Below, in pieces: positions 22,328 through 52,900 of a DNA stretch of 64,000 bases. Under the pieces are notes generated by a model that worked only from the letters and a program-made list of their open reading frames with translations, was not told where the DNA came from and made no database searches. The stretch comes from Erysipelothrix sp. HDW6C. GTDB taxonomy: Bacteria > Bacillota_I > Bacilli_A > Erysipelotrichales > Erysipelotrichaceae. Where the stretch lies: NCBI RefSeq assembly GCF_011299615.1, contig NZ_CP049861.1, positions 372,001-436,000 on the forward strand, in the 5' to 3' direction. The translations under genes were made by a program, and so were the position numbers. The first letter of the stretch is position 1, and each line of letters begins with the position of its first letter.

Positions 22328-22341
22328 GAATGTATTAATCA

Positions 22342-22475: not shown

Positions 22476-23489
22476 ATGACACACGTAACAAAATCTTTTA
22501 TTTATGGCATTCCGAAAGCGGAATTGCATTTGCACCTGGAGGGGTCGTTGGAACCAGAATTGAAACTCCAACTTGCAACGAAGAATGGTATTGATATTGG
22601 GCAAACGACTGTAGAGGAAGTTCAGAAAAGTTATCAATTTAATGATCTATCATCATTCTTGGGAGTATACTATCCAGCGATGAATGTACTTCAAGAAGAG
22701 GAAGATTTCTACAATCTGGCAATGGCATACTTACGCCGCGTCAAAGAGCACAATGTTCGCTATGTAGAATTGTTCTTTGATCCACAAGCGCATACTACGC
22801 GTGGTGTTGCATTCGAAACAATTATTAATGGCTACTATCGTGCAACACAAGATGCAAAAGAGATGGGCATTCGTGCGCATTTAATTATGTGCTTCTTGCG
22901 TGATATGAGTGCTGAATCGGCAATGGAACATTATGAAATGTCGTTACCATATCATGAACTCATTCTTGGAGTTGGTTTGGATTCGGACGAACGTAACAAT
23001 CCACCATTAAAATTCCAAGAGATATTTGCACGTGCCAAGGAAGATGGACTCCATCTTACAATGCATTGTGATATTGACCAAGAGCATTCAATCCAAAATA
23101 TTCACGATGTACTTCATGTTATTGGTGTTGAACGCATTGATCATGGAACAAACATTGTTGAAGATCCAAAACTTGTTGATTATGTCATCGAGCATAATAT
23201 TGGATTTACATGTTGCCCTGTATCCAATGGTTTTGTGACCAAGGATATGAAGGGCAAAGAAATTGTCGAATTACTTCATAAAGGCGCAAAGGTAACTGTG
23301 AATTCAGACGACCCAGCCTACTTCCAAAGCTACATTTCAGATGACATGTTCGCTTTAGCAGAAAAAGAAAATTTAACCGAAGCCGATATTATTCAACTTG
23401 CGAAGAACTCATTTGAAATTGCATGGATGAGTGATGAGGATAAGAAAGTCTATCTCGATGAGATTGATGCTTACGTAAGCGCACAATAA
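22476..23489 (+). CDS. Adenosine/adenine deaminase family protein with altered catalytic motif
   Basis: 337 aa amidohydrolase. The metal-binding HLHLEG (KAELHLHLEGSLEPEL) and the late VNSDDPAYF aspartate motif are present, as is ERIDHGTNI. LEPEL, MCFLRDMSAESA and GVGLDSDE resemble adenine deaminases (adenine to hypoxanthine plus ammonia) more than adenosine deaminases. The usual HAGE motif with the catalytic Glu is replaced by MHCDIDQ, so substrate and activity need care. AAAGGAGG is present. A guanine-type riboswitch controls it, which fits purine salvage, since hypoxanthine would be sensed. Confidence 0.82.
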   Translation: MTHVTKSFIYGIPKAELHLHLEGSLEPELKLQLATKNGIDIGQTTVEEVQKSYQFNDLSSFLGVYYPAMNVLQEEEDFYNLAMAYLRRVKEHNVRYVELFFDPQAHTTRGVAFETIINGYYRATQDAKEMGIRAHLIMCFLRDMSAESAMEHYEMSLPYHELILGVGLDSDERNNPPLKFQEIFARAKEDGLHLTMHCDIDQEHSIQNIHDVLHVIGVERIDHGTNIVEDPKLVDYVIEHNIGFTCCPVSNGFVTKDMKGKEIVELLHKGAKVTVNSDDPAYFQSYISDDMFALAEKENLTEADIIQLAKNSFEIAWMSDEDKKVYLDEIDAYVSAQ

Positions 23490-35099: not shown

Positions 35100-35745
35100 A
35101 ATGTAAAAACCCCCAGATAGTCTGGGGGTAACGTATAGCTTTAGCGATGTATTCATTAATTAACCTCCATTTGGTATTATTGAGGTATAGGCTGTGAACT
35201 ATTCACAATTGTTCAAAGGCGATTCCAATGAAGGATACACACAGTTTATCACATACATCTTGGAGCTGTAAATATCACGTAGTATTTGCTCCAAAATACA
35301 GAAGATAGGTATATTATGGAACGCGTCGACTAGAAATAGGCGCGATATTAAGAGAACTATGTAGATGGAAAAGCATCAATATAATAGAAGCAGAAGTCTG
35401 CGTAGATCATGTGCATATGATTTTAGAAATCCCACCCAAAATGAGTGTCTCTGGTGTCATGGTTTTTTTGAAAGGAAAAAGTAGTGTAATGATTTATGAC
35501 AAATGGGGAAATATGAGATACAAATATAGAAGTCGACAATTTTGGTGTCGAGGATATTATTTGGATACCACAGGAAAGAGAAAAATAAAGAAATACAATG
35601 CAAATTAGTTGAAAGAAGATAAAGTCGTGTCGCAATTGACGCTGGAAGACATTGACCCGTTTACAGGTAGTAAGTACTCGATGTGAAAGGTAGTCTACAT
35701 TTGCGCTGTAAAGCACCACGGGCATAACATGGCTATGCCCGCATA
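35100..35745 (+). mobile_element. Decayed IS200-type insertion sequence (IS200/IS605 family)
   Basis: About 650 bp. The left-end hairpin is a perfect 9-bp stem (35109-35129, ACCCCCAGA with its complement), a likely incoming-transcription terminator as in IS200. A second pair ACCTC (35163-35167) / GAGGT (35182-35186) is of the kind that hides the ribosome site. A TnpA-like gene with two stops follows. The right-end hairpin is CGGGCATA / TATGCCCG (35719-35741). No tnpB is present. Exact ends are not defined. Confidence 0.8.
35228..35686 (+). pseudogene. tnpA: IS200-type Y1-transposase TnpA with two in-frame amber stops
   Basis: One continuous frame of 152 codons, the normal TnpA length, broken by TAG at codon 27 (35306-35308) and codon 127 (35606-35608). 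Clear family marks are SHTSWSCKYHVVFAPKYRR, the HUH metal motif in DHVHMILEIPPK, LKGKSSVMIYDKW, FWCRGYYLDT and DPFTG. The putative catalytic Tyr near codon 123 (KKYNAN) is kept. Both stops fall where homologues usually carry Gln, so each could stem from a single C-to-T change. Probably inactive. Confidence 0.88.
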
Positions 35746-35994
35746 AGTAAAACTACCAGCAAAACGGGTGGATATTTAATATCACACTGGAAAACCGCAC
35801 GCCATGTATGTGAGAATATAGACTTATAGAGTTGTAACGAAAAGCTCTTCAAATTAATGATATTTGTGATATGTGAATCACTTAAAATCATGTCATGAGA
35901 ATGAATACTATGATGTTGCTGTCGTCCATAATCAAATTAAGGGCATAGAAAATCATAATTTTAATAAAACTCATCATTCAATATAAGGGCCGTA

Positions 35995-36003
35995 TGATAT
36001 AAT
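35995..36003 (+). promoter_or_regulatory. Extended -10 promoter of ncRNA copy A
   Basis: TGATATAAT (35995-36003), a perfect TGnTATAAT. No strong -35. It lies about 19 bp before the shared CTCGCA motif. Confidence 0.55.
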
Positions 36004-36009
36004 CAGCAT

Positions 36010-36313
36010 GTAATAATAAATCTCGCAAGCCATACAATCTGGTCAAGCTCGAATCAGAGTACTTGCTTGCGATGAGTTCTACCAATATGAAATGTGAATT
36101 CGAATAGCATGGATTGTTGCATAGGCTCAACTTGTTTATGAATTGCCTACACACGAAATTCGTCTCAGGTCGTTGGTAACACTGGGACTCCATCATAAGC
36201 TGACAACCAAAGCAGTCTTGTGAACGGAGAGTAGTGTGGCGAGCGAGGATTAGATAAGAATTCTACTTAAGTAGTCAAGAGAGAGTAGGCTGGCCAGTCT
36301 GCTCTTTTTTTTA
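36010..36313 (+). ncRNA. Putative structured non-coding RNA, copy A (novel family of three)
   Basis: About 300 nt without a credible coding frame, between the IS200 remnant and the beta-helix adhesin. It starts with TCTCGCAAGC, which closes an 8-bp helix TCGCAAGC (36023-36030) with GCTTGCGA (36064-36071). An internal hairpin TAGGC (36122-36126) / GCCTA (36145-36149) holds TCA-ACTTGTTTA-TGA. It ends with a terminator AGAGTAGGCT-GGCC-AGTCTGCTCT plus T8 (36282-36312). The start motif, ACTTG loop and GGCC-loop terminator are shared with copies at 45275 and 45787. Function unknown. Confidence 0.6.
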
Positions 36314-36463
36314 TGGAGTTCTGAATTTAATTATAAACAAACAAAATATATAATATCAACAAAACACACGTTTATTACATAAAACACACAGTCTGTTACA
36401 TTCTCCGCTCTTTTGTATGGTTTCTTTGTACAATGGGTTATGTAATAGAGGAGGACCTATTTT

Positions 36464-39382
36464 ATGAAGAAAACATTCATGATAATGCTTTCCATCCTAC
36501 TTATTGGTAGTGTATCGCTACCGATACTAGCAATCGAAAATTCAGAAGTAACGCCAGAAATAACAGATGTTCAAGAATCTGAAATTGATGATGCGGAGAT
36601 CGCTGAAGATTTAGATGATGAAATTAAAGTAGAAGTAGAAGAGACGACAGAAGAAACAATAATTGAGGAAGATATCGAGGAAGAAGTGCTCGAAGAGACT
36701 GCTCAACTTGAAGTCGCGATTGAAACAACAGGGGAAGAAAAGAGCACAAAGTTAGTGCAACCCGTTGCGGACACGGGAGAAATAACAAATGCAATTCAAT
36801 TAAAAGCGGCGATTGAGAATGCAACTGCGGATCGCGTAATTGTATTGACTGCTGATTTTGATCAAACAACACTGAATAACCTCATAATCAACAAGACAAA
36901 TGCTCATAGTATCGTAGTTGATGGTGGCGGGTTAACGTATGCCCCGACAGCAAATAAGCAATTCTTTATTCAAAGTAATACTGCAGGAACACTTGAGTTC
37001 CGTAACTTTATCTTTGATGGTCAAGGAACTGGGGTAAGTGGAATAAATATTAATGGAGATGTTCAAGGTTTGACACTTGAAAACCTAACATTTAAAAATA
37101 ATACGTCAACATCAGTGTATGTACAGGCAACCGGTGATGTCACAATTAATAACAACTATTATACAAATAACTCAGGGGCTTTTGGTGGGGGAATTGAAGT
37201 TTCCAAAGGAACGATTCTAATCTCAAACAGTTCGTTCATAAGTAACCGAAATGATGCCGGTGGTTATGATGGAGGTGCGATTGCAGGAAAAGATTTCCTC
37301 GGTAACTTAACAATTACAAACAGCAAGTTTATCGACAATCATGCTACAGGAGCTGGTGCAGTTGCTGGGGGACGTGGTGGTGCGATTGCAATGGTCTACG
37401 CACCATCAACATCAGAACTCAATAACTCACAAACCTTAATTAAAGATTCCTATTTTGAAGGGAACACAGCAACCCTTAATCGCCCGACAGTTATGGGTGA
37501 TGGTGGTGCTATTGCGGTCATTAACTTGAAGAAAAACGCAACATTTACAGTAGAAGGTTCGACGTTTGCGTACAATGAAGCGGGTGACGATGGTGGAGCA
37601 ATCTTGTTCCAAGGTCGTGAATCCGGCGGAATCTTTACTGTTAAGAATTCAACATTCTTCAAAAATGCAGCCCATGGTAATGGCGGAGATGCAGGTTTGA
37701 GTGGTGGTGCAATTCAGTTGTTTGCTAACTCATCCATGACTGCAAATTTTATCTCTAATACATTCGTTGAGAACACAGCATATGCATATGTTGAGAATCA
37801 AGGACAACGTGGTGGAGCTGTTGCTGGAAGTGGTAGTTTCCTTACAGGACGTGGACAATATGCGAATAACTTATTTGTAAATAATCATGTTTACAGCAGT
37901 CCTGGTGTCGAAGATACCGAATCAAAATACCGAAACATTGTCTCAGCAACCAACAAGCTTGGGAATGTCGGATTTGATAATGGAACAACGATTCAATATA
38001 CAACAAATATGGAAGCGTTCGGTACAGATACACCGCAACTTGCGGCGAACGGAAGTGTAATTACTGCGGGATCATCAGGTGATGCAATTGTGGTTCCAAC
38101 GCTCATGATTGCTCCTGATACAGGATTAAATGAAACAGGGGCAATCAGTCCCGATAGTGCAGGACAGATTGGCGACTTAGCATACGATCAACGTGGTAAA
38201 CTAAATGGTACAGATGCAGGTTCAGTAGAAATTGCGGTTCATAACTATAATGCAAACGGTGGAACATTCGCATTGGATGCAATGGGTGCGTATACAGGTG
38301 ATATATACTACTTAGGAACAGAACCTACAAATTATTATAATATTAGTGAAAATGGGGGTTCGGGAACAGTACTTACAGGATCATCCCTTAATGCAACACG
38401 GGCGGGGTATACATTCCTCGGATGGGCTACAACTGCAGATGCAACCGTTGCGGATATCACAGAAGGTGATTCAATCCCATTCAATGTTGAGAATACGATT
38501 CTTTATGCCGTATGGAAACAGGATGTTGAATATACTGTCACATATGATGGAAACCAATCAACCAGTGGTAGTGTACCAACAGGTACAACCCAATTAGAAG
38601 ATACCGACTATACAGTGCTCGCAAACAGTGGAAATCTCGCAAGAGACGGATATACCTTCACGGGTTGGAATACTGCTGCAAACGGTACTGGAACACCCTA
38701 CAAGGCCGACGACGTCTTCAGTCTTACTGGAAATGTAACACTCTATGCACAATGGGAAGAAATTCCAGTGGTCGTCACACAGTATACTGTAACTTATAAT
38801 GGTAACGGAGCAGTTACAGGAACGCTACCTGTATCTTCTTCAATCGATGCAGGTACAGACTATAGTGTACTTGGTAACGTTGGGTATTTGAGTCGCCCTG
38901 GCTTCACCTTTGCAGGGTGGAATACAGCGGCTGATGGAAAAGGAACACCTTACCAAGCGGATGATATCGTGACGCAACATACAAACACCGTTCTTTACGC
39001 TCAATGGAAGCAAATTCCTGACATTCAATCTGTGTCGGTTATGTATTTAGGGAATGGTGCAGATGCAGGTAGTGTTCCAAATGGTATTACTGTTCCTGCA
39101 GGAACACAATATACTATTATTGGGAATACTGGGAAATTAAGTAAAACGGGTTATACGTTCTCTGGTTGGAACACGAAGGCAGATGGTACTGGAACAGCAT
39201 ATGCTGGTGCTGAGATCATCCAAGTAACTGCGGATATTACGCTTTACGCACAGTGGACCGCACAAGGTCCGAAACTCCCTTCAACTGGAATCGCAAGCCA
39301 AGGATTAGAAATTATAGGATTTACAACAGCCGCTCTTGGTATGTTATTTATCATTATAAAAAAACACAATGAAGTTAAATAA
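36464..39382 (+). CDS. LPXTG surface protein: beta-helix domain plus four InlB-type repeats
   Basis: 972 aa. Signal peptide residues 1-24 (MLSILLIGSVSLPILA core), Glu-rich spacer (about 25-95), then a right-handed parallel beta-helix (about 100-500) with repeated GGAI and N-x-F/Y strands (NSSFISNRNDAGGYDGGAIAG type), as in Pmp-like and pectate-lyase folds. Four Listeria-Bacteroides (InlB B) repeats follow (about 590-930; GYTFTGWNTAANGTGTPY type). LPSTG is at about 938-942, then a membrane helix and KKHNEVK. A sortase substrate, likely adhesive. GGAGG ribosome site. Independent of ncRNA A upstream, which ends in a terminator. Confidence 0.93.
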   Translation: MKKTFMIMLSILLIGSVSLPILAIENSEVTPEITDVQESEIDDAEIAEDLDDEIKVEVEETTEETIIEEDIEEEVLEETAQLEVAIETTGEEKSTKLVQPVADTGEITNAIQLKAAIENATADRVIVLTADFDQTTLNNLIINKTNAHSIVVDGGGLTYAPTANKQFFIQSNTAGTLEFRNFIFDGQGTGVSGININGDVQGLTLENLTFKNNTSTSVYVQATGDVTINNNYYTNNSGAFGGGIEVSKGTILISNSSFISNRNDAGGYDGGAIAGKDFLGNLTITNSKFIDNHATGAGAVAGGRGGAIAMVYAPSTSELNNSQTLIKDSYFEGNTATLNRPTVMGDGGAIAVINLKKNATFTVEGSTFAYNEAGDDGGAILFQGRESGGIFTVKNSTFFKNAAHGNGGDAGLSGGAIQLFANSSMTANFISNTFVENTAYAYVENQGQRGGAVAGSGSFLTGRGQYANNLFVNNHVYSSPGVEDTESKYRNIVSATNKLGNVGFDNGTTIQYTTNMEAFGTDTPQLAANGSVITAGSSGDAIVVPTLMIAPDTGLNETGAISPDSAGQIGDLAYDQRGKLNGTDAGSVEIAVHNYNANGGTFALDAMGAYTGDIYYLGTEPTNYYNISENGGSGTVLTGSSLNATRAGYTFLGWATTADATVADITEGDSIPFNVENTILYAVWKQDVEYTVTYDGNQSTSGSVPTGTTQLEDTDYTVLANSGNLARDGYTFTGWNTAANGTGTPYKADDVFSLTGNVTLYAQWEEIPVVVTQYTVTYNGNGAVTGTLPVSSSIDAGTDYSVLGNVGYLSRPGFTFAGWNTAADGKGTPYQADDIVTQHTNTVLYAQWKQIPDIQSVSVMYLGNGADAGSVPNGITVPAGTQYTIIGNTGKLSKTGYTFSGWNTKADGTGTAYAGAEIIQVTADITLYAQWTAQGPKLPSTGIASQGLEIIGFTTAALGMLFIIIKKHNEVK

Positions 39383-39389
39383 TTAGTGT

Positions 39390-39428
39390 AAGGCCTGGCT
39401 GTCATATCGACGGGTAGGCCTTTCTTTT
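39390..39428 (+). terminator. Terminator of the beta-helix adhesin
   Basis: Stem AAGGCCT / AGGCCTT (39390-39396, 39416-39422) followed by TCTTTT. Confidence 0.75.
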
Positions 39429-39488
39429 GACTAAACTAGGATTAGAGGACGTGTTGATGGTATAGTATTGTTAAAGTAGGTGAACAAT

Positions 39489-40103
39489 ATGAATCAGATA
39501 GAAAAGGGAACTATAACTGAATACAATCAAGAAATTTCAATGCCATATATCGATGGAGAACCACTAAACATTCACCTCAGTAAGCAAACCTCGGACAAGT
39601 CTTTAGCTCAACTTTGGTCAGCCTGGGAAGGGTTGAACAATGTAAATGAACAAGCATATATTAAGCAGTTGTTATGCTATCAAATTGATGGAATTGTTCC
39701 CATCTTGATATGCCCCGATGATATGGATTTAAGCTGCATAACTATTGTTGCAGACGTTAAATCAACCAACAATACAGTATATTGGAAACGTGTGGGAGTC
39801 CTAAAGGCGAAGAACTGGTCAAATCAAAAATGGGTAAGTTCAGGAATACGCAATACGACACGCTGGAGCAATGAACAATTCCAATCATTAGACTATTTGC
39901 GTCTACTTGATAAGGAAAATCCAGAGTGGGATCAGTGGATTTGCGCAAATTGGCCGTATGAAGAGTCAATGCGATTGTGGAATTATCACTTTGTGTATAT
40001 GAATAATCAGGAAAATATTGAGTGGTACGATGTCCCATCGTTTGAATTTAACAGATTATCATACCGACAATGTGTAGAACAGATTCTTGTTTCAAATATT
40101 TGA
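39489..40103 (+). CDS. Unknown cytoplasmic protein (204 aa)
   Basis: No signal peptide or membrane helix. Trp-rich (LWSAWEGL, VYWKRVG, EWDQWICANWPYEESMRLWNYHF) with mixed alpha/beta character. I do not recognise a family. The size, Trp content and isolated place among surface proteins recall immunity-type or stand-alone accessory proteins, but this is only a guess. ATG 39489 (after AGGTGA) is preferred over GTG 39480. Confidence 0.6.
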   Translation: MNQIEKGTITEYNQEISMPYIDGEPLNIHLSKQTSDKSLAQLWSAWEGLNNVNEQAYIKQLLCYQIDGIVPILICPDDMDLSCITIVADVKSTNNTVYWKRVGVLKAKNWSNQKWVSSGIRNTTRWSNEQFQSLDYLRLLDKENPEWDQWICANWPYEESMRLWNYHFVYMNNQENIEWYDVPSFEFNRLSYRQCVEQILVSNI

Positions 40104-40290
40104 AAGTTAATAATCATGCAATATGACATTGATTCAATGTTAATGATTTGGCAATTTAGACGATTGTTAAATGAGTGGAATTGCACACAATGCGCGAAAT
40201 TTGTTAAGATATAACGACAAGACATCGTTTTATGGATGTTGAATGGAATAGTAATGCAGACTCGGGGATGTCAAAACAAAGGAGATAATT

Positions 40291-40779
40291 ATGAATTACT
40301 ATATTGTTGATGATAAACAAATCCCGGTGAAGTTTACGGATGATGGAAAAATAGTTGATGCCAAGACATCTCAAGAATATGTCGATACAAAAAAAGCTGA
40401 GGAAATCATTGATGTAAAATCAAGTGGTAAGAAACTCCATGGTGGGGCTGTGTCGATTCTATCTATTCTAATGATACTGTTGATTATCGCACTCAATGGA
40501 TCAAAAGTCGATAAGGTTTACAGTTCCGGAGGAAAAGGAACAATTGCTGCTATCACGAATAGTTTTAATGATGCTTCATATAAAATGACAGAATCAATCT
40601 TAGCACCTGTTATCATTGTTTTAATGCTGATTGTAACAATATTGGTTCTGCGATATTTTGTTGATCCTCATGTTAGAGAAGTCGAAATTATCGATAAGGA
40701 AATGACACATCGTGTATTTGTTCGAGAACGTGTGTATAACAATCACCTTGCTCAAATAAATTTAAGAAAAGCACATTAA
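40291..40779 (+). CDS. Unknown two-helix membrane protein (162 aa)
   Basis: Cytosolic N-terminal part (about 1-50, YIVDDKQIPVKF), then a first helix (VSILSILMILLIIAL), an exposed loop of ~40 residues rich in Gly/Ser, a second helix (APVIIVLMLIVTILVL) and a charged C-terminal tail. AAAGGAG 7 nt before ATG and its own terminator suggest a monocistronic gene. Not recognised. Confidence 0.7.
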   Translation: MNYYIVDDKQIPVKFTDDGKIVDAKTSQEYVDTKKAEEIIDVKSSGKKLHGGAVSILSILMILLIIALNGSKVDKVYSSGGKGTIAAITNSFNDASYKMTESILAPVIIVLMLIVTILVLRYFVDPHVREVEIIDKEMTHRVFVRERVYNNHLAQINLRKAH

Positions 40780-40796
40780 TAGATAAGCATTCTTAG

Positions 40797-40827
40797 AGAT
40801 GGTGCAGAAAATCTGCATCTTTTTTTT
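40797..40827 (+). terminator. Terminator after the two-helix protein
   Basis: Bulged stem AGATGGTGCAGA / TCTGCATCT followed by T8. Confidence 0.85.
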
Positions 40828-40907
40828 GTAAATTCACGCAAACATTAAATGCATATGATATTTGTGTGGAGAATCGCTAATTTCAAGAAAAGAAATACAG
40901 TCTGTCT

Positions 40908-40958
40908 TATAATTAAGGAAAGGGGGCGACATTGACAGCGTGACCCAAGGGAACTTGG
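40908..40958 (+). promoter_or_regulatory. -10 box and GNRA hairpin in the leader of the bile-salt-hydrolase-like gene
   Basis: TATAAT at 40908-40913 with weak -35. In the leader, CCAAG-GGAA-CTTGG (40945-40958) forms a 5-bp hairpin with a GGAA tetraloop. Role unknown. Confidence 0.4.
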
Positions 40959-40998
40959 ATCAAATAGAAATATCAATCAAATACGAGGAGGACTTATT

Positions 40999-41949
40999 AT
41001 GTGTACAAACATTACACTGAAGAATAATAATGGCGATTACTTGTTAGCACGAACGATGGATTTCTCATTTGAACTTGAACCGGAGATGCTAATTATTCCG
41101 CGAAACTATCCAATGAAATTTGCATTGAAAGATTCACCACTCGAGAACCATTATGCTTTTGCAGGATTGGGTAAGAATATTGGTTCTTATACAATTGCAG
41201 ATGGCGTTAATGAATTCGGATTATCGGGAGCGGCGTTATACTTCGCAGGCTATGCTCATTATGATGATATTGTTGAAGATGTAAATGCGTTGGCTCCACA
41301 CGAATATATCATGTGGATGTTGGCAACATGCAAGACGATTGATGATGTAAAAGACGCTATCGCAGAACATGCAGTATCGGGAGTTGAACTTGAATTTTTG
41401 GGAACAACACCGCCACTTCATTGGTCATTTCAAGATATCAGTGGAAATGCAATTATTGTAGAACCAACAATTCGTGGAATTGAGATACATGAAAATAAAA
41501 TTGGTGTTCTTACCAATAGCCCTGATTATGCATGGCATCTTACAAATGTTAGAAATTATATTGGCTTGGATCCAGTTCAAGTTGAGTCGCGGACGCTGTT
41601 TGGTCAAGAGTTCGAACCGTTTGGTCAAGGAAGTGGAACGTTTGGTGTACCAGGAGACCTCACACCGCCTTCACGATTCATTAAGACACTTTATACCAAG
41701 CTCAGTGCCAAAAAGACTGATACCGAGCGAGATATGGTTATAGCTGCTTCACACATACTTAATGGCGTTGATATTCCAAAAGGGAGTGTCATTACGAAGC
41801 GTAACACAATAGACTATACACAGTATATGTCCTTTATGGTCGCAACGACACAGACATATTATTATAAGTTATATGATGATTTCACAACACATGTCGTAAA
41901 ACTACAGGATTACGATCTGGATGCACGTGAAATTATTAAAGTTATTTAA
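40999..41949 (+). CDS. Choloylglycine hydrolase family protein (bile salt hydrolase / penicillin V acylase)
   Basis: 316 aa Ntn-hydrolase. The nucleophile Cys2 directly follows Met1 (MCTNI), so it is exposed after Met removal. Other active-site parts are visible: ARTMDF (Arg/Asp), NEFGLSGAALYF (Asn), LTNSPDYAWHLTNVRNYIG (Asn) and SRFIK (Arg). Members cut amide bonds of conjugated bile acids, penicillin V or acyl-homoserine lactones; which one applies is open. Bile salt hydrolysis fits a gut-associated host life. GAGGAGG ribosome site. No signal peptide, so cytosolic. Confidence 0.9.
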   Translation: MCTNITLKNNNGDYLLARTMDFSFELEPEMLIIPRNYPMKFALKDSPLENHYAFAGLGKNIGSYTIADGVNEFGLSGAALYFAGYAHYDDIVEDVNALAPHEYIMWMLATCKTIDDVKDAIAEHAVSGVELEFLGTTPPLHWSFQDISGNAIIVEPTIRGIEIHENKIGVLTNSPDYAWHLTNVRNYIGLDPVQVESRTLFGQEFEPFGQGSGTFGVPGDLTPPSRFIKTLYTKLSAKKTDTERDMVIAASHILNGVDIPKGSVITKRNTIDYTQYMSFMVATTQTYYYKLYDDFTTHVVKLQDYDLDAREIIKVI

Positions 41950-41981
41950 TTTATGAATAAAACAGAAAAAGGGGAATTTAT

Positions 41982-42281
41982 ATGGGAAGATTTTTTAGTA
42001 TAAACTGGGTTGTTATTTTGGTTACATGCCTGATTATTGGCGGGGGATATTATCTTCAAAAGTCAAGCAACTTCATTTCTAAAACATTAAAGGTAGAACC
42101 CAAGAGTTTTTACATCATTATGGGGATGTTGGGAATTATTCTATCACTCGTAAACTATATTGCGGTTGTTGTATTTGGGTCATGGCAAACATTAATCTTT
42201 ACAGCAATTGGTGCAGTAGTGGTAGTATACGGCGTATTATTTTACTTGAAACGTCGCTCTAACAATACAAAGAAAGACTAA
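41982..42281 (+). CDS. Small three-helix membrane protein (99 aa), unknown
   Basis: Three hydrophobic helices (NWVVILVTCLIIGGGYYL; FYIIMGMLGIILSLVNYIAVVV; TLIFTAIGAVVVVYGVLFYL) and a basic tail RRSNNTKKD. AAAAGGGG ribosome site. It starts 32 nt after the hydrolase stop and 16 nt before the next membrane gene, so an operon of hydrolase plus three membrane proteins is likely. Not recognised. Confidence 0.7.
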   Translation: MGRFFSINWVVILVTCLIIGGGYYLQKSSNFISKTLKVEPKSFYIIMGMLGIILSLVNYIAVVVFGSWQTLIFTAIGAVVVVYGVLFYLKRRSNNTKKD

Positions 42282-42297
42282 AGGAGGAGAATAAAAT

Positions 42298-42624
42298 ATG
42301 AGACGCTCGTACTTTGAAGGAACGGTTTGGTCCTATGTAAAGCTTCAATTGGTAAATATCTTGATTGCAGCAATCACGTTTGGTTTTGGTACACCATGGG
42401 TCTTGGTGCGAACCTATAAATGGGAATCAGAAAATGCAGTCATTGGAGGCAAGCGATTCCGATTTACGGGGACCGCAATGGACTTGTTTGGCCATTGGCT
42501 TCTTTGGTGGCTCTTAACAGTGGTAACGCTTGGTATTTATGCAATTGTAGTCAGAGTGAGAATTATCGAATGGCGCGTTGAAAATACAGTATTAATCGAA
42601 GGAGAGGACACATATGAAGAATAA
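42298..42624 (+). CDS. DUF898-like membrane protein (108 aa)
   Basis: Resembles one half of YjgN/DUF898 proteins: YFEGTVWSYVKLQ, then FGFGTPWVLVRTYKWESENAVIGG, RFRFTGTAMDLFGHWLLWW and LTLGIYAIVVR-like segments with two to three helices. Role unknown. AAGGAGGAG ribosome site; its end overlaps the next start by 11 nt. Confidence 0.72.
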   Translation: MRRSYFEGTVWSYVKLQLVNILIAAITFGFGTPWVLVRTYKWESENAVIGGKRFRFTGTAMDLFGHWLLWWLLTVVTLGIYAIVVRVRIIEWRVENTVLIEGEDTYEE

Positions 42625-43132
42625 CAGCACAGTATGGACTAAGATTGTATCAGCACTAAGTGGAATCGTATATGTAGTATTTGGGATACTAATGATTAAT
42701 AATCCAATCACGACATTGGCCTCACTTTCATTACTTATGGGGTGGGTCGTAACGATATCCGGTATTCTATCATTAGTAAATGCGTTCCGATTTAGAAATC
42801 ATCCCGATGCAAACGTAAGCTTTGTCGACGGACTATTGTTGCTTCTTTTAGGTCTCATGTTTCTCTTTGGTGACTTCATTCGCAACACACTAGTACTATC
42901 CTATCTCTTAGTGTTCTGGATCATCTTGGATTCAATGCTCCAACTGCAATTTGTCCTTAGTATTAAAGGAGGCGGATGGGCGAAGATTCTAACAATCATT
43001 CTGGATGTTATTATTATCGTTTATGGTATTAATCTCTTATTCAATCCTGGAAGGGCAGAAGGATTCCTCGTATTCTCGCTGGGATTTGCATTTATAGTTA
43101 CGGGAATCAGTAAAGTAACAAAAGTAATGTAA
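42614..43132 (+). CDS. HdeD/DUF308 family membrane protein
   Basis: 172 aa, about six helices, with the NP repeat motif seen in this family (VVFGILMINNPITTLASL and VYGINLLFNPGRAEGF). Paralogue of the gene at 10364. Translationally coupled to the DUF898-like gene by an 11-nt overlap, with GGAGAGG. Linked to acid or envelope stress in distant relatives only. Ends in a strong terminator. Confidence 0.82.
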   Translation: MKNNSTVWTKIVSALSGIVYVVFGILMINNPITTLASLSLLMGWVVTISGILSLVNAFRFRNHPDANVSFVDGLLLLLLGLMFLFGDFIRNTLVLSYLLVFWIILDSMLQLQFVLSIKGGGWAKILTIILDVIIIVYGINLLFNPGRAEGFLVFSLGFAFIVTGISKVTKVM

Positions 43133-43153
43133 CGAGACGTTATCAGAGTCTTC

Positions 43154-43180
43154 AAGCCGCTAATAATTTAGCGGCTTTTC
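43154..43180 (+). terminator. Terminator of the membrane-protein operon
   Basis: Stem AAGCCGCTA (43154-43162) / TAGCGGCTT (43169-43177) followed by TTTTC. Confidence 0.85.
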
Positions 43181-43182
43181 AT

Positions 43183-43212
43183 TTGCAGAAAACACGTGAC
43201 ATGTTGTATAAA
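43183..43212 (+). promoter_or_regulatory. Promoter of the sortase-like gene
   Basis: -35 TTGCAG (43183-43188), 18-bp spacer, -10 TATAAA (43207-43212). It implies an unusually long leader of about 270 nt. Confidence 0.6.
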
Positions 43213-43218
43213 TTACTT

Positions 43219-43490
43219 CGTTTTTACAATGCATAAATTAATATGAACTTCACACTTTAAAATAAGTGGCGAGTTCAAGAGCTCGATTATCGGTGCGAAT
43301 AACAAAATGTATATTTAGAATCCATTCAGTTGCTGCCACCAGTCAATGTCTTTGTGCATCACAACCGGGCGTTGTATTATGTGTACATCTTCAAACAGAA
43401 GATGAAGATAACAAGCTGTTTGCAACGCTTAGTAGATGTGAAGACGTGCGCACGTTGACATATCACATGCAAAGACGGGGATGTAACATT
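43219..43490 (+). promoter_or_regulatory. Long structured 5' leader, candidate riboregulator
   Basis: Helix GCGTTG (43369-43374) / CAACGC (43423-43428) encloses hairpin CATCTTC-AAACA-GAAGATG (43386-43404). Downstream, ATGTGA (43436-43441) / TCACAT (43463-43468) encloses the 12-bp palindrome ACGTGCGCACGT (43444-43455), 35 nt before the ATG. An in-frame reading of this leader lacks any start with a ribosome site. I do not match it to a known riboswitch. Confidence 0.4.
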
Positions 43491-44345
43491 ATGAAGAAAT
43501 ATATGAAGATATTTGTGGCTTTGGTCACAGTTTTAAGTGTCGCTTCAATCGGAACGACAATCTACGCTGATAGCACTGCGCCTAGAGGTCAGAGTCTAGG
43601 ACTATCAGAAAAGGAAAGACAAATTCGTAAAGGTTATTCGTCAATCCTAGAGAAAAGTAATCTCAATAACAATCACAGTATCCAAGCAAACGGAACAAGC
43701 ATAACACTTGGTGAAAGTAAAAGTATAAAACTCTTAGATCAAGTTCTGCAATTACGTGACATGGATACAAACGTCCGAAACTCAATGAACAAATACTGGA
43801 ATCCAATCAATGAACACGCTTTAAATAAAATTGCTGAAAGACAAGCCGCAGAAGAGGAAGTTGTCACTCAAGAAGTTAGTGTTCAAGAAACAACAATACA
43901 ACCAGTATCAACTGGTACACCTGCTCCAACAGCAGTTGCGCCAGCATACCAACAATACATAGAGCACAATGGTGCCTACTATCCTTTTAGCCAACTTGCA
44001 GTGGATACAGGTGTCGCTCAAAATTTCATTGACAACAATCCAGAGGCTTTTGGAATGTGGAATGGGGTTACGTACGCTACAACAATGGATGTACTCTTTG
44101 CGCATAACTACGCAGCAGGTGTCCTTGTGTATAATACGGCTGTAGGGGATACAGTGACTTTACATTATGCTAGTGGTGAAACCGTTAGCTATCAGGTACA
44201 GTCTAAAACTGTCGCATCCGTCAATGACTACTATGACTCGAATTCGAGCTTATGGCAGAACGTTGGAACAAATTTCAATCTTATGATAAAAACTTGCTAT
44301 GATGTCAATGTCACTGACTTGGTCATAACGTTGGTGAGAATTTAA
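43491..44345 (+). CDS. Secreted sortase-fold protein with possible His-Cys-Arg site
   Basis: 284 aa. Signal peptide residues 1 to about 23 (IFVALVTVLSVASIGTTIYA). Low-complexity linker rich in Glu, Thr, Pro (about 120-150). The C-terminal ~130 residues resemble a sortase barrel: VLFAHNYAAGVLVYNTAVGDTVTLHYASGETVSYQV, then NLMIKTCYD and LVITLVRI. These align in order with the sortase His, the TxTC Cys and the Arg, but His is in AHN, not AGH, and there is no membrane anchor. It could be a divergent transpeptidase or an inactive binding domain. The upstream in-frame extension to 43266 is leader RNA. Confidence 0.65.
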   Translation: MKKYMKIFVALVTVLSVASIGTTIYADSTAPRGQSLGLSEKERQIRKGYSSILEKSNLNNNHSIQANGTSITLGESKSIKLLDQVLQLRDMDTNVRNSMNKYWNPINEHALNKIAERQAAEEEVVTQEVSVQETTIQPVSTGTPAPTAVAPAYQQYIEHNGAYYPFSQLAVDTGVAQNFIDNNPEAFGMWNGVTYATTMDVLFAHNYAAGVLVYNTAVGDTVTLHYASGETVSYQVQSKTVASVNDYYDSNSSLWQNVGTNFNLMIKTCYDVNVTDLVITLVRI

Positions 44346-44387
44346 TCCTCTTCTATAATATGAGGATTGGGCCCTGCGGGGTCTTTT
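44344..44387 (+). terminator. Terminator after the sortase-like gene
   Basis: Hairpin AATCCTC (44344-44350) / GAGGATT (44362-44368), then a second GC-rich hairpin GGGCCC-TGC-GGGGTC and T6. Confidence 0.75.
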
Positions 44388-44484
44388 TTGTATGTTCATG
44401 ACAAATTTCAGCCCATTAAGCCATAGAAGGACTAAATAACTTATAATTTGATATAGTAAGTTGATATTAAATGGGAGACTGAAA

Positions 44485-45060
44485 ATGAAAATTAGAAACA
44501 TATTTATCGGTGTTTTGATGACACTTGCGTTGGTGGGGTGTTCAAGTGGTGAATCCATGATTAAACCTGAAACAATTGAAGTACCATATGAAATCGAAGC
44601 AGGAATCACAATTGTACCATTTGGGAACAAAGCCGAATACGGAACACTTGAAGTAACAATGAACGGATACAAAGTTACCAATCGTATTACAGGAATGGGA
44701 AAAGAATACTTCACACCAGCAGACGGTAGCACATTTATTGCAACCTACTTTACAGTAACAAATAATGGTGAGGAGAGCGCAAAACTCGTCGACACGATGA
44801 ATGGCGCATGGGTCCATGATGTACTACTCTTTGTTGAAGACGATATCGAAGCAGGTGGCTACGAGATGGTTGATGAATTTGGTTTGAAGGGTGCAGCACA
44901 CTCCGATTCAATTGAACCTGGAGAAACAAAAGATGTTGCAATATTCTTCCACGTCGATCAAGCTGATGCAGAAATCGAGGGAAACTACCTCTTATCATTT
45001 GAGAAAGAGAATCGTATTGATGATACACAATACTACGAATTATTCGTCGAATTTAAGTAA
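44485..45060 (+). CDS. Lipoprotein with DUF4352-like domain
   Basis: 191 aa. Lipobox LALVGCSS puts the lipidated Cys at residue 21, so it sits on the outer face of the membrane. The mature part has the DUF4352 immunoglobulin-like pattern: IVPFGNKAEYGTLEVTMNGYKVTNRI, then FIATYFTVTNNGEESAKL, and an EPGETKDVAIFFHV strand. Such lipoproteins are common in Firmicutes; role unknown. ATG 44485 after GGGAGA; the earlier in-frame ATG 44461 gives a poor signal peptide. Confidence 0.82.
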   Translation: MKIRNIFIGVLMTLALVGCSSGESMIKPETIEVPYEIEAGITIVPFGNKAEYGTLEVTMNGYKVTNRITGMGKEYFTPADGSTFIATYFTVTNNGEESAKLVDTMNGAWVHDVLLFVEDDIEAGGYEMVDEFGLKGAAHSDSIEPGETKDVAIFFHVDQADAEIEGNYLLSFEKENRIDDTQYYELFVEFK

Positions 45061-45071
45061 TAACAATTGCA

Positions 45072-45105
45072 AGGAGAATGAATCACGATTCGCTCTCCTT
45101 TTTTT
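45072..45105 (+). terminator. Terminator of the DUF4352 lipoprotein gene
   Basis: AGGAGA...GAATC / GATTC...TCTCCT, a stem with an internal loop (45072-45099), then T7. Confidence 0.85.
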
Positions 45106-45274
45106 ATGAAATGCAAAATGTATTTTAAGCAAAAATCCTAATCGTGTTAAGAAACGATGTGGAAATCATGATGAAAACAGAGAAAAAATGGAATTATATT
45201 CTGTTGGTGACATCAAGTAGAAAGTTTGCGACAAATCGTAAAAGAGGGAGTAATATTATCCTATACTTTACAAG

Positions 45275-45630
45275 CGATGATTTTTAGAATCTCGCACTCA
45301 TTGCCAACAGTACAAGGAATTCTGTAGCAATGGGCGTTCTGTGAGTGTCTGAGTATCTGATCGATTTCGAGATTGATTGGATAAACAGCATGATACAAAA
45401 CAAACACTTTATGCAATGCAACAAGTGAGCAATGAACAAATGATGCTTCAAATTCGAGATTGAATGATACACAAACTACAACTTGGAAGTAGAATGTGAT
45501 TGGACTGATAAAACCAAGCTTGACGTCTAAAATGATCAGTTGGTATCGAGGATAATGCATCAAACGTGCAGAGTTTAGGAGTTATTTTGCAAAAGGGAAA
45601 GAGACAGGTCGGCCAACCTGTCTTTTTTTG
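45275..45630 (+). ncRNA. Putative structured non-coding RNA, copy B
   Basis: About 355 nt with no supported gene. CTCGCA at 45291-45296 begins a nested hairpin: CACTC/GAGTG outside, CATTGC/GCAATG inside, ACAG/CTGT at the tip (about 45295-45347). At 45476-45492 CTAC-AACTTGGAA-GTAG matches the loop of copy C exactly. The terminator is AGACAGGT-CGGCCA-ACCTGTCT plus T7 (45602-45629). A TATACT lies at 45262-45267. Boundaries at the 5' side are approximate. Confidence 0.6.
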
Positions 45631-45771
45631 TAGAATATCAAAAAGAATCGATGTGTTATATTAAGAATCAGTTAAGGAAAAGCGCGGTTAAGTATAGTAT
45701 TAATGCTAAAAAATTTGGTTAATGACATCGAAGGTACATTACGGAACAAATCGAGGCACAGTACGGTGATG

Positions 45772-45780
45772 TGTTATATC
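45772..45780 (+). promoter_or_regulatory. Extended -10 promoter of ncRNA copy C
   Basis: TGTTATATC (45772-45780), TGn plus a near-consensus -10, about 26 bp before the shared CTCGCA. Confidence 0.45.
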
Positions 45781-45786
45781 ATATCT

Positions 45787-46120
45787 ATGCGAAGAAATTC
45801 TAATTCTCGCACATTATTGGTATATAACTCAGTGGCTCAGTATCGAGAGCTGAGTTGCTTGAAATATGTACCACTATAAACCAAATCTCGAACGCTACAA
45901 TGGAAACGTGGCGGGAATGAATTGAGTATTGGAACTGAAACAACAAAATCCACAATGTCACAACTTGGAAGTGACAAAGTGATTCGGAGAACATGATCCA
46001 AGCTGTTCCCTGGAATTGAATGCGTTGCAACGGAAACAACATTCAAAACAAACTCAATACAACTCTGGTGTAGCACTAGAGAGAAAGAAAGACAGGTCGG
46101 CCAACTTGTCTTTTTTTTTG
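45787..46120 (+). ncRNA. Putative structured non-coding RNA, copy C
   Basis: About 330 nt. CTCGCA at 45806-45811. Hairpin TGTCAC (45956-45961) / GTGACA (45971-45976) has the same 9-nt loop AACTTGGAA as copy B but a different stem, which is compensatory change. The terminator AGACAGGT-CGGCCA-ACTTGTCT plus T9 (46090-46119) differs from copy B by one C-to-T that keeps pairing as G-U. It precedes the thioredoxin-like lipoprotein and the giant adhesin. Confidence 0.62.
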
Positions 46121-46315: not shown

Positions 46316-46792
46316 ATGCGAAAAATATTCTCTTTAGTACTTCTCGTGCTGTTAATAGTTGGCTGTTCTACTCAAACAGACAACAGAGCAGATATGAAGG
46401 ATTATGAGAATCTTTCAAAGAAACATCACTACATTGACAGTGACTATGTAGAGTCAACCTTAAAATTGAAAAATCTCGAGCAGGGTTACTATACATTTGG
46501 ATTCACAGACTCAATGTCATCACAACTTCTAATTGAAGCGTTTGAAGAAGTTATGAGTGATAAGGATATCACGTCCTACTACTACGATTTAAAATCAGAT
46601 GATTTCTCGACTTTGGTTCATCGGCGTTTGGATGAGTTTTTTGTGCATTTATCACCCAATCAATTAAGCGGTGATCGCTGGCCAGCGATTATTGTGGTGA
46701 ATGAGAATGGTGATGTGAAGGTGTTTAATAGTATAAACACTGAAGATGTCGAAAGAATTAAAGAAGATATCGTAACGGCGTTATTTGAATGA
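46316..46792 (+). CDS. Thioredoxin-fold-like lipoprotein lacking the CxxC motif
   Basis: 158 aa. Lipobox LLIVGCST gives a lipidated Cys at residue 18. The mature domain follows the layout of bacteriocin-transport-accessory/thioredoxin proteins: YYTFGFTDSMSSQLLIEAFEEV, SYYYDLKSD, and WPAIIVVNENGDVKVF (cis-Pro strand). Where relatives have C-x-x-C this protein has D-S-M-S-S, so it cannot act as an oxidoreductase. GGAGGAG ribosome site fixes ATG 46316 over ATG 46292. Assignment is moderate. Confidence 0.65.
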   Translation: MRKIFSLVLLVLLIVGCSTQTDNRADMKDYENLSKKHHYIDSDYVESTLKLKNLEQGYYTFGFTDSMSSQLLIEAFEEVMSDKDITSYYYDLKSDDFSTLVHRRLDEFFVHLSPNQLSGDRWPAIIVVNENGDVKVFNSINTEDVERIKEDIVTALFE

Positions 46793-46948
46793 TTTAATAT
46801 CATATAAACTAAACTATAAAAACTAAAAAATAACTTATTGGAATCTATGGAAAATACTGAAAACTGCGGACTTTATTGAAACTGGGCAAATTACTGATGA
46901 TTACTGAATGAATTAAAGAAATAAAGCAATTGAATGAAAGGAGCCTGC

Positions 46949-49900
46949 ATGAAGGCAACACTAACAAAATTAGGAAAGAAACTCTTTTCCTTACTTGTTG
47001 CAACAGCAATTATACTTGGAACATTCGGCTTATCTCCAACCTATGCAGACGAAACGAATAATCGAGGTTTTGAAGAAATACTAGAAGTTACAAAAGAAGA
47101 TGTACCAGACTTCTATAAGTTTATCAATGAAGGCAAAGATAAAATCGATGCTGATTGGATAAGCTCAGATGTTGCAAAAATGATTTACCACTTTACACAA
47201 TTTGATGGCACAGACGAATATCGTGTCTATGGAACATACAATGGTGTAAATGAAGGATATTACAAAATTGATAAAGAATTTAAAACAGTTGAAGAAACCC
47301 GCATTAAAGTAGCGGATGATAAAAAATCTACCGAGGATCAAAGAATACTAGAAGAGGTGTCTCCAACACCGGAAGCTCCTACTACAGAAGTTGATCCTAT
47401 AGAAGAAACACCAAATACTGAAGTACCACCTACTTCAGAAGAGGCAGGAAAGCCAACTAACTTTGCAGCAGGAGACTTCTCAGAAGTTACACCAGCTGAA
47501 AACATTCCTGCATACTATTCAGAATATGCAAAAGTTGGTCCAGAAAACATACAAATTTATACATATATTAATAGATTAGGGCGTACAGAATACCGTGCCT
47601 ATGGTATGGTAAGTGGAGCAAACAAAGGCTTCTATCCAATGAACCAATACGCTGAGTTACAGTCGGAAAATGTAATTGATTTGATTTCTGAATATAAAAC
47701 TACAGCACCATTTGATTTTAAAGGTAAATCATACATTGGAACGATTCCTACATCATCCACATTTGTGAAAGACACCGTGCTAACAGGAATTCTAGGATAT
47801 GATGTCTATTCATATACATCAAACGCAGAGAAAGTAGTTTATCGTGCATTTGGTGAGGTAGTGAATGTTGATGACAGTATTGGATCCGCAGGTTGGTACG
47901 ACATTGACCAGCATGGTCAACTAGTGGTTCCAATCAATACCGGAAATCATTTGTTAGCGAAAATTAAAGATATTAATGTGGAATTCATTAATCTTTCAAA
48001 GGACGGCTTCATTGAAGGGACTGCGATAACTGTACCGTCGTTCTACCAAGGCCCGAATCCTAAAGATGACATAGATACAATTACGAAGCGATCAGGTTTC
48101 TATAGTTACACAGATAGAAATGGTACGGGAAGATACCGGGTTTATGGAACGCTAAATGGAACAGATTATGATTTCTACGAGACAGATGAATTTGGAAACG
48201 TTTCAAGCAACCCAATTAAAATAGATTTGGTTGATGAAGAAAAGAACTTGAAACCAATCGGAGAGATTGCAGGTGGGAATCTATGGGATGCCCCGAACGA
48301 AGCAATCATAACAGAGGCAACAATTCTTAAGACAATTGATGGTAGTGGTCCCTGGGATGCAGACGATGTACCTGGTAATGACTCTAATGATGCAAACGGA
48401 ATAGTTAGAAGTTTCGATAATGTTACTTATGATATTGAAGTGAAGATGAATATTCGTGAAGGATCGAGTTACATGTCATTTGACCAAGGTTATGTTCATA
48501 TAAGATATACACTTCCGGTTGATTTTGATACTGCAAGTTTTGATCTTGATGCGATGTCAGAAATCAAAGACGTTAAATTAGATAAGAGTACTCCTGGAAA
48601 ACAAGTGTTGACGGGTAAAATACTCATTCAGAAAAGTTCAGATGGGCAACCACCAATTAATGGTTCTAAAACAATTCCGGTTTACTTAAAAGTAAAAGGG
48701 GCAACAGATAAAACGAAAATCACACCCCAATTTGAGTATTGGTTAGATGGAAACAATGAAACTGAGAATGGTCCTGATGTCAAAAAGACTGTATCAAAAG
48801 AATTGACTGTATCAGCTGCTCCAAAATATAACGTAAAAATCAAAACAGCAACTTACGCAAACCAAAAAGGGTTCTTTGATTTTACAAGTGGTGAGATATC
48901 ACAAAGTCAAAATGGAAACAGCAAGCACGGTCGTGCGTTCGGCTACGCATTGACTATAGAACTCTACAATGACAATCGTGCAAAAGGCCTCAAAGGTGTA
49001 GAGGTACCAAGTGGGGACTTCTCATTTGATGTCGATATGCTATATACGCAAAAAGCAGTATCAGCAACAGCAGAATCTCCAACACCGGCAAATCTTCAAC
49101 CATTACTATGGGATTACAAAATGAATGTTGCTACGGGGAGTTATTATGGACAATTGAAACGGAACATGTTCTTAGGAAGTGTTAACGCATTGACTGCAAT
49201 AAACGCAGCTCCGTATGCAGGAAAATCGACGGCTACGGATACAAGTCAGATATACAATACCCCAGGAAATGTTTCAATGGTTCAAAATGGAAATACAATC
49301 AATGTTACATTCAAAGACTATAAATTTGATGATGATATGATGAGATTTCCTGACAGAAACTATATTGCGAATGCACCAGATGCTGACATGGGTGCAAATG
49401 TTGGTAGTTTTAGTGCTGGTTATTTTATGGTACTTAATCAAATGCCTGAGAGTGTAGTTGAGAGTACAGACTATTACATTGATATGAACATCAAAAACCT
49501 AAATGCAACCTCAAGCAGTGGGAAATCAGTGAAAACTCAAATGAAGACAACGGATGATCGAGTGAAACTTCGAGTAGAGATGTTCCCTGAAGGAGGAGTA
49601 TCTAAGTTAAACTTCTTCTCGCCAAAAGATCACGCAGGTTGGTCATCAGTCCCAACATACTTCTCCAATTATGCCATGGGTGACTCCTGGACATATCCAG
49701 ACCAAGATATCCAACTGTGGAGTCATATTTACTATGATAGAGGAGATGAGGATCAAGTATTAACATCATTTAATTTACTACAGAAATTTGATGATAAAGG
49801 ATTTGTCCCAACCAACGAAACAGATGGAAGGGTATCAAGACTACATAGGATGACAACCTCGGCCACAAACATAGACTTGAATAAGGTTAAAGTCTTGTAT

Positions 49901-52900
49901 GGTGCAAAGCCAAATATTAATAATCAAGGATGGGATAATTTCGATGAAATGGAATATGCCAAGGAAGAAGATTTAATTTATTTTTCTTCAATTGATGAGC
50001 TTCACAATGCTGGCTATACAGCCGTTGCGCTTCTATATGAGTATCGCGACAATGTAAATCCAATTGTTCCGACAACACGTTGGGGCTTCAGTTACTTTAT
50101 GAATATTCCAGCAGATACTCCAACAGGTGTAGTTTATACTACAAGTAACTCTTTTAGAGCTTGGGACAAAACGCGACCTATAGAAATGTCGAAGACAATG
50201 TTAGGAAATGATCCAAGTAATCCAACTAATTTTGGAATTGAACCAACATTATGGAAAATTAATGGAGAAAGAAATCCAGGCGGAACACTGTCTCAGGCTC
50301 ACTATTCCCCACAACTATATTCTGAAAATGGTGCCCTTGCTGGTGGTCATGCAGGTGGATATCAATCAGGACAATCATTACTAATTGTGGGTAAAGAAAC
50401 TACGGTAACAAAGAAAATCGAACAAAATCAAGGAACAGAAGCATCAGGATATATTTTTGACCTTGATACTGGAAAACGTACGGTCGACTATGCAATTGAT
50501 AGTTCGTATAAATATGCAGATAACAAGGCTTCAGAGGGTAATGTTGAGTATGGTGATGTCACAATTACTGATAAGCTTCCACCCAATATAACATACATAC
50601 CTGGATCAACTTCTATTGGTGGAGACTATACACCACATGAATCAATAGGTGGATCTGGGACAGTGTCGGGAGGCTATGCATTTGAACCCGTAGTAACAAC
50701 AGAGCCATATGTACACTACGATGGCAATGGAAATGTCGTGTCAGGACATCCTGATCAAGGAAAAATAAGACAAGTACTTACATGGAAATTTTCAAATGTT
50801 AAAGTCGATTCTGACTTAGAAACAATTCATTTTAAAGCAACAATTGGAGATGTTAATGATCCATCAAAAGATGTTATAAATAACTACAGTTTTAATAACA
50901 CTGTAGAAGTTAGAGCAACAGGTGATGGTCGAGCATTGAATGATCACAATAATAATAGATACAGTGTATCTGCATCTGTTAAGAAAACTGGTGCAACGCA
51001 ATTTGTTAAGAGTGTTGAAAAAGATGTTGTCGAAATTGGTGAGGATGTTGGCTTTAATATCACATACGCAAACTCGTCAACCAATGTACTTGGTAGTGTA
51101 AAATTATTGGATATTCTACCATATAATGGTGACGGAAGACGTACAAACTTCGAAGGAAGTTATTATGTTGATAAAATCACAATTGAGTATTCAAAAGTGC
51201 CAACTGCTCCAATGAATCCAATGGAAATTAGGTATACGAATTCCATGGATATTAGAAATCAAAATATTAATGCATCAAATGTTAATACGACAGGATGGTT
51301 AACTGCCTCAAGATCGGGAAGTGGTAAGACTTATACCTATAGTATTTCTGGAACTCAAATGAAGGGATTCATCGTTGAGGGAAATCTAGATGCGATGGCT
51401 GGAATGAAAATTACCTATCATCTAAAAATAACCGGGAATGCACCAGCGAATATATACGGAAATGATTCGTCTGTTGTAAGTGGAACATCGACGCAACCAT
51501 TAATGGCGACTCCAGTACGATCACAAGTGGCAAGAAGATCAATTTCTGGATTGGCTTGGATTGACAGTAATCGAAACGGAAGACAAGATGCTTCAGAGAA
51601 AAAACTATCTGGAGTAAAAGTTGAACTTCGTGATGATAAAGGTCAACTCGTAACCACAGACGTAACTGGATCACCTATTCCAGTAACATATACAAATAGT
51701 GCAGGTAGATACTCATTCACCAACCTAAAAGAGGGAACATACAATGTATATTTTGTCGATGGTGGAACAAGTATTAATGATTACACTGTCACTGAGTTAA
51801 GAGCGCCAGGAGTATCGACGAGTTTAAATAATGATGCAGTCGGTAACTATACCGGGGATCAATTAACGAGTGCTGTTGTCTCAGACATAGTTTTACCAGC
51901 ACTTGCAGATATGCGTGAAGCAGATTTCAATGCAAACTATCTTGATATGGGAGTTCATTCAGAATTCTATGTAGAGAAGACAAGTACTCCAGATGGAGGG
52001 ACGGAATCAAGTCCTGCAGAACTAAAAGAAGGTGATGTCGTTACTTATACTGTTTCGGTACATTCACCAAAATCAGCACAAAATAGTGTCGTAGTAACGG
52101 ATAAACTTCCTGTAGGTATGAACTTTGTACCTGGAAGTATCTCGTATAAATTACCCGGAAGTGCAACATCCAAAACACTTCCAGATTCCCGCTATAATGT
52201 AGCAGCGCGTACCATTACCTGGAACGATATCGTTGGTACAGGGGTAAATATCCCAGTGGGAACAACAACATTTACATTTAAAGCGGTGGTTGGGAAATTA
52301 CCTGTTGGCTCTAATGAGTTAGCAGTAAAGAACCAAGCATTTGCGAAGATTACAGGTGAAGACTATGATTACCCTTCAAATGAGGTGTATCACAAAGTAG
52401 TCTCACGCAGTGCAAGCATTGCAAAACAATCAGCACTCGTAGTCAATGGATTACCGGGATCTGTCAATAACGGAACTGAAGGAAATCCAATCCAAGCAGG
52501 TCTTGGACAAGAAATCGAATATACATTAATTGTTAAGAATACAGGTGCTGCAGGAACAAAGAGTGGCGCCATCAATGTTGAAGATGTTGTTCCAGCAGGA
52601 ACAACCTTCACAGGAACACAAAATGTAAGTTTCTATGATAGTAATAATGTTGGAACAAGTCTGCCAGGAACAACGGCAACACAGAGTTTCAACAGCGGTT
52701 CGACCACAAACCTTAAATGGACACTCAATAACATGAGTCCAAATGAGGAAGCTCATATTAAATTTAGAGTTAAAACAGATATGACAGCAATAACTGGAAC
52801 GGGTGAGACCACAAGTTACATCAAATTAATTGATAACATCGCATCCATGACAGACGTACAAAAAGAATCGCTAACATATAAAGAAACAGCATGGGATGCC

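Follow-up and report, generated by a model that had tools for sequence, protein, structure and literature searches.

What kind of genes, if any, occupy three intergenic stretches among the surface-protein genes of Erysipelothrix sp. HDW6C? The stretches, here called A, B and C, lie in a window of 64,000 nucleotides (nt; positions 372,001 to 436,000 of contig NZ_CP049861.1) in a 2.36-Mb single-contig genome. A preliminary description of the window had taken them for a three-copy family of free, structured, non-coding ribonucleic acids (RNAs). Inspection bears out that all three are intergenic and that each ends in a strong terminator hairpin with a GGCC loop. For two of them, B and C, a follow-up by computation points to paralogous genes for small RNAs (sRNAs):
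45274 to 45629, + strand: B, proposed sRNA gene of about 355 nt (similarity to C, covariance model match, non-coding)
45789 to 46119, + strand: C, proposed sRNA gene of about 331 nt (similarity to B, covariance model; folding z -4.1 without terminator)
45596 to 45629, + strand: B terminator, loop CGGCCA
46082 to 46119, + strand: C terminator, loop CGGCCA

When the terminators are left out, the local alignment of B and C scores 242, whereas 500 dinucleotide shuffles reach 151 on average and at most 218. On a slightly longer stretch the score is 265, and about 400 real window fragments give no more than 233. The likeness starts about 85 nt upstream of the motif CTCGCA. Coding similarity was absent from a six-frame comparison of B and C on either strand, in which only the terminators matched, and for these two stretches the comparison bears out the earlier view that they are non-coding. 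Judged by their sequences, B and C are paralogues. Their terminators are 89% identical over 36-38 nt, far closer than the RNA bodies; gene conversion may be an alternative cause of this likeness. The GGCC palindrome in the terminator loops could also permit kissing between the RNAs.

The question that follows is whether the two RNAs share a structure. Folding, covariance modelling and comparison of pairs predict these elements:
45274 to 45295, + strand: B P1, hairpin at the 5' terminus, GCGA-u-GAUUU/GAAUC-UCGC (seen in the minimum-energy fold; 5'-domain pairing probability 1.0)
45789 to 45810, + strand: C P1, 5'-terminal hairpin GCGA-a-GAA/UUC-UCGC (minimum-energy fold)
45297 to 45334, + strand: B P2, hairpin without counterpart in C, loop UACAAGGAAUU (fold; coincides with gaps in the B-C alignment)
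45441 to 45562, + strand: B core, with H1 and H2 enclosed by the helix UGAUGC/GCAUCA (C-only model R1; compensatory changes)
45470 to 45498, + strand: B H1, CACA-AA-CUAC, loop AACUUGGAA, GUAG-AA-UGUG
45503 to 45541, + strand: B H2, GACUGAU/AUCAGUU, with CCAAGC, complementary to the H1 loop, in its loop (script check; duplex -6.5 kcal/mol)
45921 to 46058, + strand: C core, enclosing helix AUUGAGU/ACUCAAU around H1, H2 and H3 (folds, model, pair changes)
45951 to 45981, + strand: C H1
45983 to 46014, + strand: C H2, loop UGAUCCAAGC
46016 to 46046, + strand: C H3

Folded independently, B and C both show P1 in their minimum-energy structures. Its geometry is the same in the two RNAs, down to the position of a bulge of one base, and the third pair beyond this bulge is U-A in B and A-U in C. 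Since about 10 of 600 random starts showed the same opening pattern, P1 alone is mild evidence. The preliminary description had CTCGCA opening a long hairpin, which is wrong for B and C, where CTCGC forms the 3' arm of the 5'-terminal hairpin (GCGA..UCGC). After P1, and in B also P2, both RNAs continue with one long and one short hairpin, followed by the core, within which the order is again the same: enclosing helix, about 24 nt, H1, then H2. It had also been proposed that stems change while loops stay, and this is indeed seen. The H1 stem is CUAC/GUAG in B and UGUCAC/GUGACA in C around the same loop AACUUGGAA, and different H2 stems (GACUGAU/AUCAGUU in B, GAACA/UGUUC in C) carry a loop with CCAAGC. 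The H1 and H2 loops are complementary to each other, by CUUGG/CCAAG in B (-6.5 kcal/mol) and CUUGGA/UCCAAG in C (-8.1 kcal/mol), so that a loop-loop contact is possible in both predicted structures; because both loops are invariant, covariation provides no test of this contact.

An argument for a conserved structure comes from two models that differ in their pairs only. Model R1 is a covariance model made from the C core alone (45919-46060) with its predicted pairs, and R3 was made from the same alignment without pairs. R1 recovers B (45438-45565; 24.3 bits, E 0.0011 for a search of 64 kb), whereas R3 yields no match to B at E values up to 10. In the model-fitted alignment of B and C, 95% of the cells pair and 11 pairs are altered on both sides. 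As such an alignment leans to structure, the count was repeated on a plain, structure-free MAFFT alignment, in which 87% of the cells pair and 6 pairs are altered on both sides, against 0-2 when the partners are slid. Conserved secondary structure, earlier proposed as selected RNA structure, is thus supported for B and C by both the models and the two-sided pair changes, and we regard their paralogy and shared structure as established.

How such RNAs might be made is suggested by the DNA just upstream:
45208 to 45238, + strand: B upstream boxes TGACATC (45208-45214) and ACAAATCG (45231-45238), 16 nt apart, at about -66 and -43; likely activator site
45262 to 45267, + strand: B -10-like box TATACT, no recognisable -35 (read directly)
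45723 to 45753, + strand: C upstream boxes TGACATC (45723-45729) and ACAAATCG (45746-45753)
45777 to 45782, + strand: C -10-like box TATCAT, no recognisable -35 (read directly)

The arrangement TGACATC-N16-ACAAATCG is identical in B and C in its sequence, its spacing and its distance to the -10 box. No exact match besides these two was found in the whole genome, and the five genome matches with two mismatches all lie within open frames or at their ends. From the -10 box to the GCGA of the RNA the distance is 12 nt in B and C alike; a transcription start some 7 nt past the -10 box would make GCGA the first bases of both RNAs. The combination of an absent -35 element with conserved boxes suggests an activator. 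From these signals we infer promoter, 5' end, transcription and activator for both genes.

Are B and C then free RNAs, or leaders of a gene downstream? The neighbourhood in which all three stretches are embedded consists of surface genes, including the following:
36464 to 39382: gene for a beta-helix protein with Listeria-Bacteroides repeats
about 44476 to 45060: gene for a DUF4352/DUF5067 lipoprotein
46316 to 46792: gene for a lipoprotein with no Pfam family
46934 to 54814: gene for a giant DUF11-rich protein
54836 to 61534: gene for a giant DUF11-rich protein with a wall-anchor motif

Tandem riboswitches and T-boxes consist of homologous structured units in series upstream of a gene, each unit ending in a terminator. 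B and C resemble them in being arranged in series, with a terminator each, on the same strand as the lipoprotein gene at 46316-46792 and upstream of it. They could therefore be tandem cis-acting attenuators of this gene, with conditional terminators and the core as a ligand sensor, for which its compactness and the possible loop-loop contact would be fitting. However, no upstream stretch of at least 6 bases complementary to the 5' arm of the terminator was found in B or C, truncated folds revealed no shared antiterminator, and there was no Rfam match. Upstream boxes and a -10 box are moreover present in each unit separately, and about 195 nt separate the C terminator from the start codon. The lipoprotein gene has homologues in 11 congeneric genomes, and upstream of these no similar RNA was seen. 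We consider attenuation unlikely. Own promoter elements, own terminators and the lack of a shared antiterminator favour free RNAs over leaders, and the duplication of boxes and -10 element supports, for B and C, the earlier view that these are free transcripts.

A further question is whether related RNAs exist elsewhere. Comparison with Rfam 15 gave no match at the gathering cut-off and none that was meaningful at permissive settings, in agreement with the earlier remark that no family of this kind was known from the literature. BLAST and model searches of the genus and 118 genomes (12 congeners and about 105 further relatives) found no homologue; in the same set, models R1 and R2 detected B and C only, and their next best matches (22.5 and 18.6 bits) were coding. 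Weak matches of A, B and C in DNA searches of relatives were discarded, those examined lying within or beside coding genes. A hairpin motif pattern gave 16 matches in GTDB genomes, mostly in open frames and none with the two-part stem of H1; a motif scan of viral contigs and blastn against phages and plasmids gave no convincing match. In the own genome, CTTGG-N-CCAAGC occurs 26 times, against 14 for a reversed control, and only B and C were recognised among these matches, the others not being inspected singly. The genome search is not exhaustive, since its first filter missed B itself with the C-only model. Covarying stems in homologues, which the preliminary description had set as a test, were thus encountered in part: paired changes exist between B and C, but a homologue outside this genome was not found, and all covariation evidence consequently stems from one paralogue pair. 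So far, the RNAs appear specific to one species, and we take this orphan pair of structured RNA genes to be both real and new.

Restriction to a single genome, with no homologue found in relatives, is also what one would expect of a decaying duplication of an intergenic segment that has no present function, and the weak folding of B apart from its terminator would agree with that. Decay would not, however, favour two-sided stem changes that preserve pairing while loops and spacing stay fixed, and for this reason such an origin seems quite unlikely.

Does A belong with B and C?
35998 to 36313, + strand: A, candidate for a separate sRNA, with TATAAT at 35998 and a terminator at 36277-36310; membership with B and C unsupported

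What A has in common with them is restricted to ATCTCGCA after TATAAT and the terminator with the GGCC loop. A family of three can point to ATCTCGCA, which A and B have after the -10 box and where C has TCTCGCA, and its best argument is the terminator: the pattern GGCCA-N5-10-CTTTTT has 8 matches in the genome, among which A, B and C alone were seen to form terminator hairpins. Of the five other matches, the four checked lie in open reading frames (ORFs) without a terminator fold. Among 500 shuffles, 11 reached the A-C alignment score when the terminator was left out and 1 when it was included. In the comparison with real window fragments, however, A-C (178) falls below the 95% level (185), and the A-B alignment without terminator, which is at chance level, scores below the mean of 500 shuffles. 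With filters off, R1 gave no credible match in A, and the upstream boxes, the 5' hairpin P1 and an enclosed core with AACUUGGAA and CCAAGC loops were looked for in A and not found, being confined to B and C. The three-copy family of the preliminary description is therefore not supported: three-fold membership is improbable, A is probably no relative of the pair, and it may represent an independent sRNA gene. Just upstream of A, at 35411-35608, lies a truncated IS200-type transposase (PF01797, E 1.8e-13), and 35700-35790 resembles the right end of the same element.

With little more than even confidence, B and C can be read as two activator-controlled, tandem paralogous genes for structured, non-coding, trans-acting regulatory RNAs. 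Each RNA would be made from its own promoter, with a -10 box, no -35 element and a duplicated pair of upstream boxes resembling an activator site, and transcription would run from GCGA to its own terminator. The product would open with a cap hairpin at the 5' end, followed by one or two long hairpins and then the core. There, two hairpins lie within the closing helix, and their conserved loops, CUUGG and CCAAG, can pair with each other. Its likely role would be regulation of envelope or surface genes through contact with RNA or protein, under a condition sensed by the activator; this role and the target are guesses.

Several observations weigh against the proposal. Target sites were sought at the starts of 45 window genes, and none turned up. 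Hfq (PF17209) and CsrA (PF02599) have no match in the whole genome, whereas control genomes do match, and without detectable Hfq a classical Hfq-dependent mechanism is unlikely. The covariation comes from two sequences in one genome. Predicted folding energy alone, with the terminator removed, is weak evidence (z -1.9 in A, -1.65 in B and -4.1 in C), B folding only moderately better than its shuffles, and the minimum-energy fold of B (-101.2 kcal/mol) partly departs from the shared architecture (-97.1 kcal/mol when completed). The surface gene at 54836-61534 carries TTCCAAGT, complementary to the AACUUGGAA loop, in its repeats at 54905, 58919 and 60113. As a target site it was rejected, as the match is only 8-9 nt long without extension and probably codes for a recurring F-Q-V motif.

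The trans-acting reading can be placed beside known regulatory RNAs. LhrC1-5 of Listeria monocytogenes are multicopy paralogous sRNAs with own promoters and conserved elements upstream of these; they are under the envelope-stress system LisRK and act on the mRNA of the surface protein lapB (PMC4132741). The LhrC copies are 111-114 nt long, almost identical and present in all Listeria, and they bind Hfq and exert their effect through UCCC motifs (PMC4132741). B and C are likewise paralogous, each with its own promoter elements and conserved upstream boxes, but they are three times longer, about half identical and found in one species. Unlike in LhrC, no C-rich or UCCC motif was found in their accessible segments, and an Hfq match is absent from the genome. 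B and C thus lack the motif that defines LhrC and are not LhrC members; by analogy, LhrC is the nearest counterpart in logic, and they perhaps work like it.

CsrB/CsrC and RsmX/Y/Z are free-standing paralogous RNAs with many GGA hairpin loops and activator-dependent promoters, and they bind CsrA/RsmA. B and C are similar in being paralogous and probably free-standing, in having promoters that would depend on an activator and in having GGA in hairpin loops, and could be multivalent RNAs whose GGA loops capture an RNA-binding protein. GGA is the most enriched of the 64 trinucleotides in the predicted hairpin loops (5 versus 0.67 expected), a maximum over all trinucleotides that was reached in 3 of 400 shuffles, and the P2 loop region of B reads GUACAAGGA. 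Yet there are only 2 and 3 such loops per RNA, CsrA was not found in the genome, the motif was chosen after looking, and the GGA of H1 is next to, or part of, the proposed loop-loop pairing. Since 2 of the 5 GGA loops are homologous, the loops are not independent. Protein capture of this type is quite unlikely. Very unlikely is a new family of free RNAs of about 340 nt whose enclosed core is organised by a loop-loop contact, and which would present GGA loops to an RNA-binding protein other than CsrA and so tune surface-protein production in a bacterium that lacks both CsrA and Hfq.

Clostridium perfringens VR-RNA and Staphylococcus aureus RNAIII, Gram-positive regulatory RNAs 390-510 nt long, are driven by response regulators at direct-repeat sites and control secreted and surface proteins. 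B and C resemble them in kind, but the Rfam comparison gave no sequence relation and no VirR or AgrA box was recognised.

The wider region looks species-specific, as its lipoproteins lack close relatives in the genus: none was found for the DUF4352 lipoprotein in 12 other species, and the lipoprotein at 46316-46792 has distant relatives only, with 24-39% identity over most matched stretches. Other non-coding elements occur in the window. A purine riboswitch (72 bits, 22323-22424) precedes an adenosine deaminase gene (22476-23489), and a non-coding leader of about 285 nt (43190-43489; predicted to fold fairly strongly, z -2.4) precedes a secreted-protein gene starting near 43490. No Rfam match of any meaning was found for this leader, and its weak likeness to A (score 185 versus a 95% background of 168) may be due to chance.

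As the case shows, an orphan RNA can be tested with a pair of paralogues, a model that includes structure and a control that does not. If they are expressed, B and C would represent a new RNA family among surface-protein genes, in a group of bacteria in which small RNAs have hardly been studied, and since neither Hfq nor CsrA was detected in the genome, their action would have to differ from the best-known routes.

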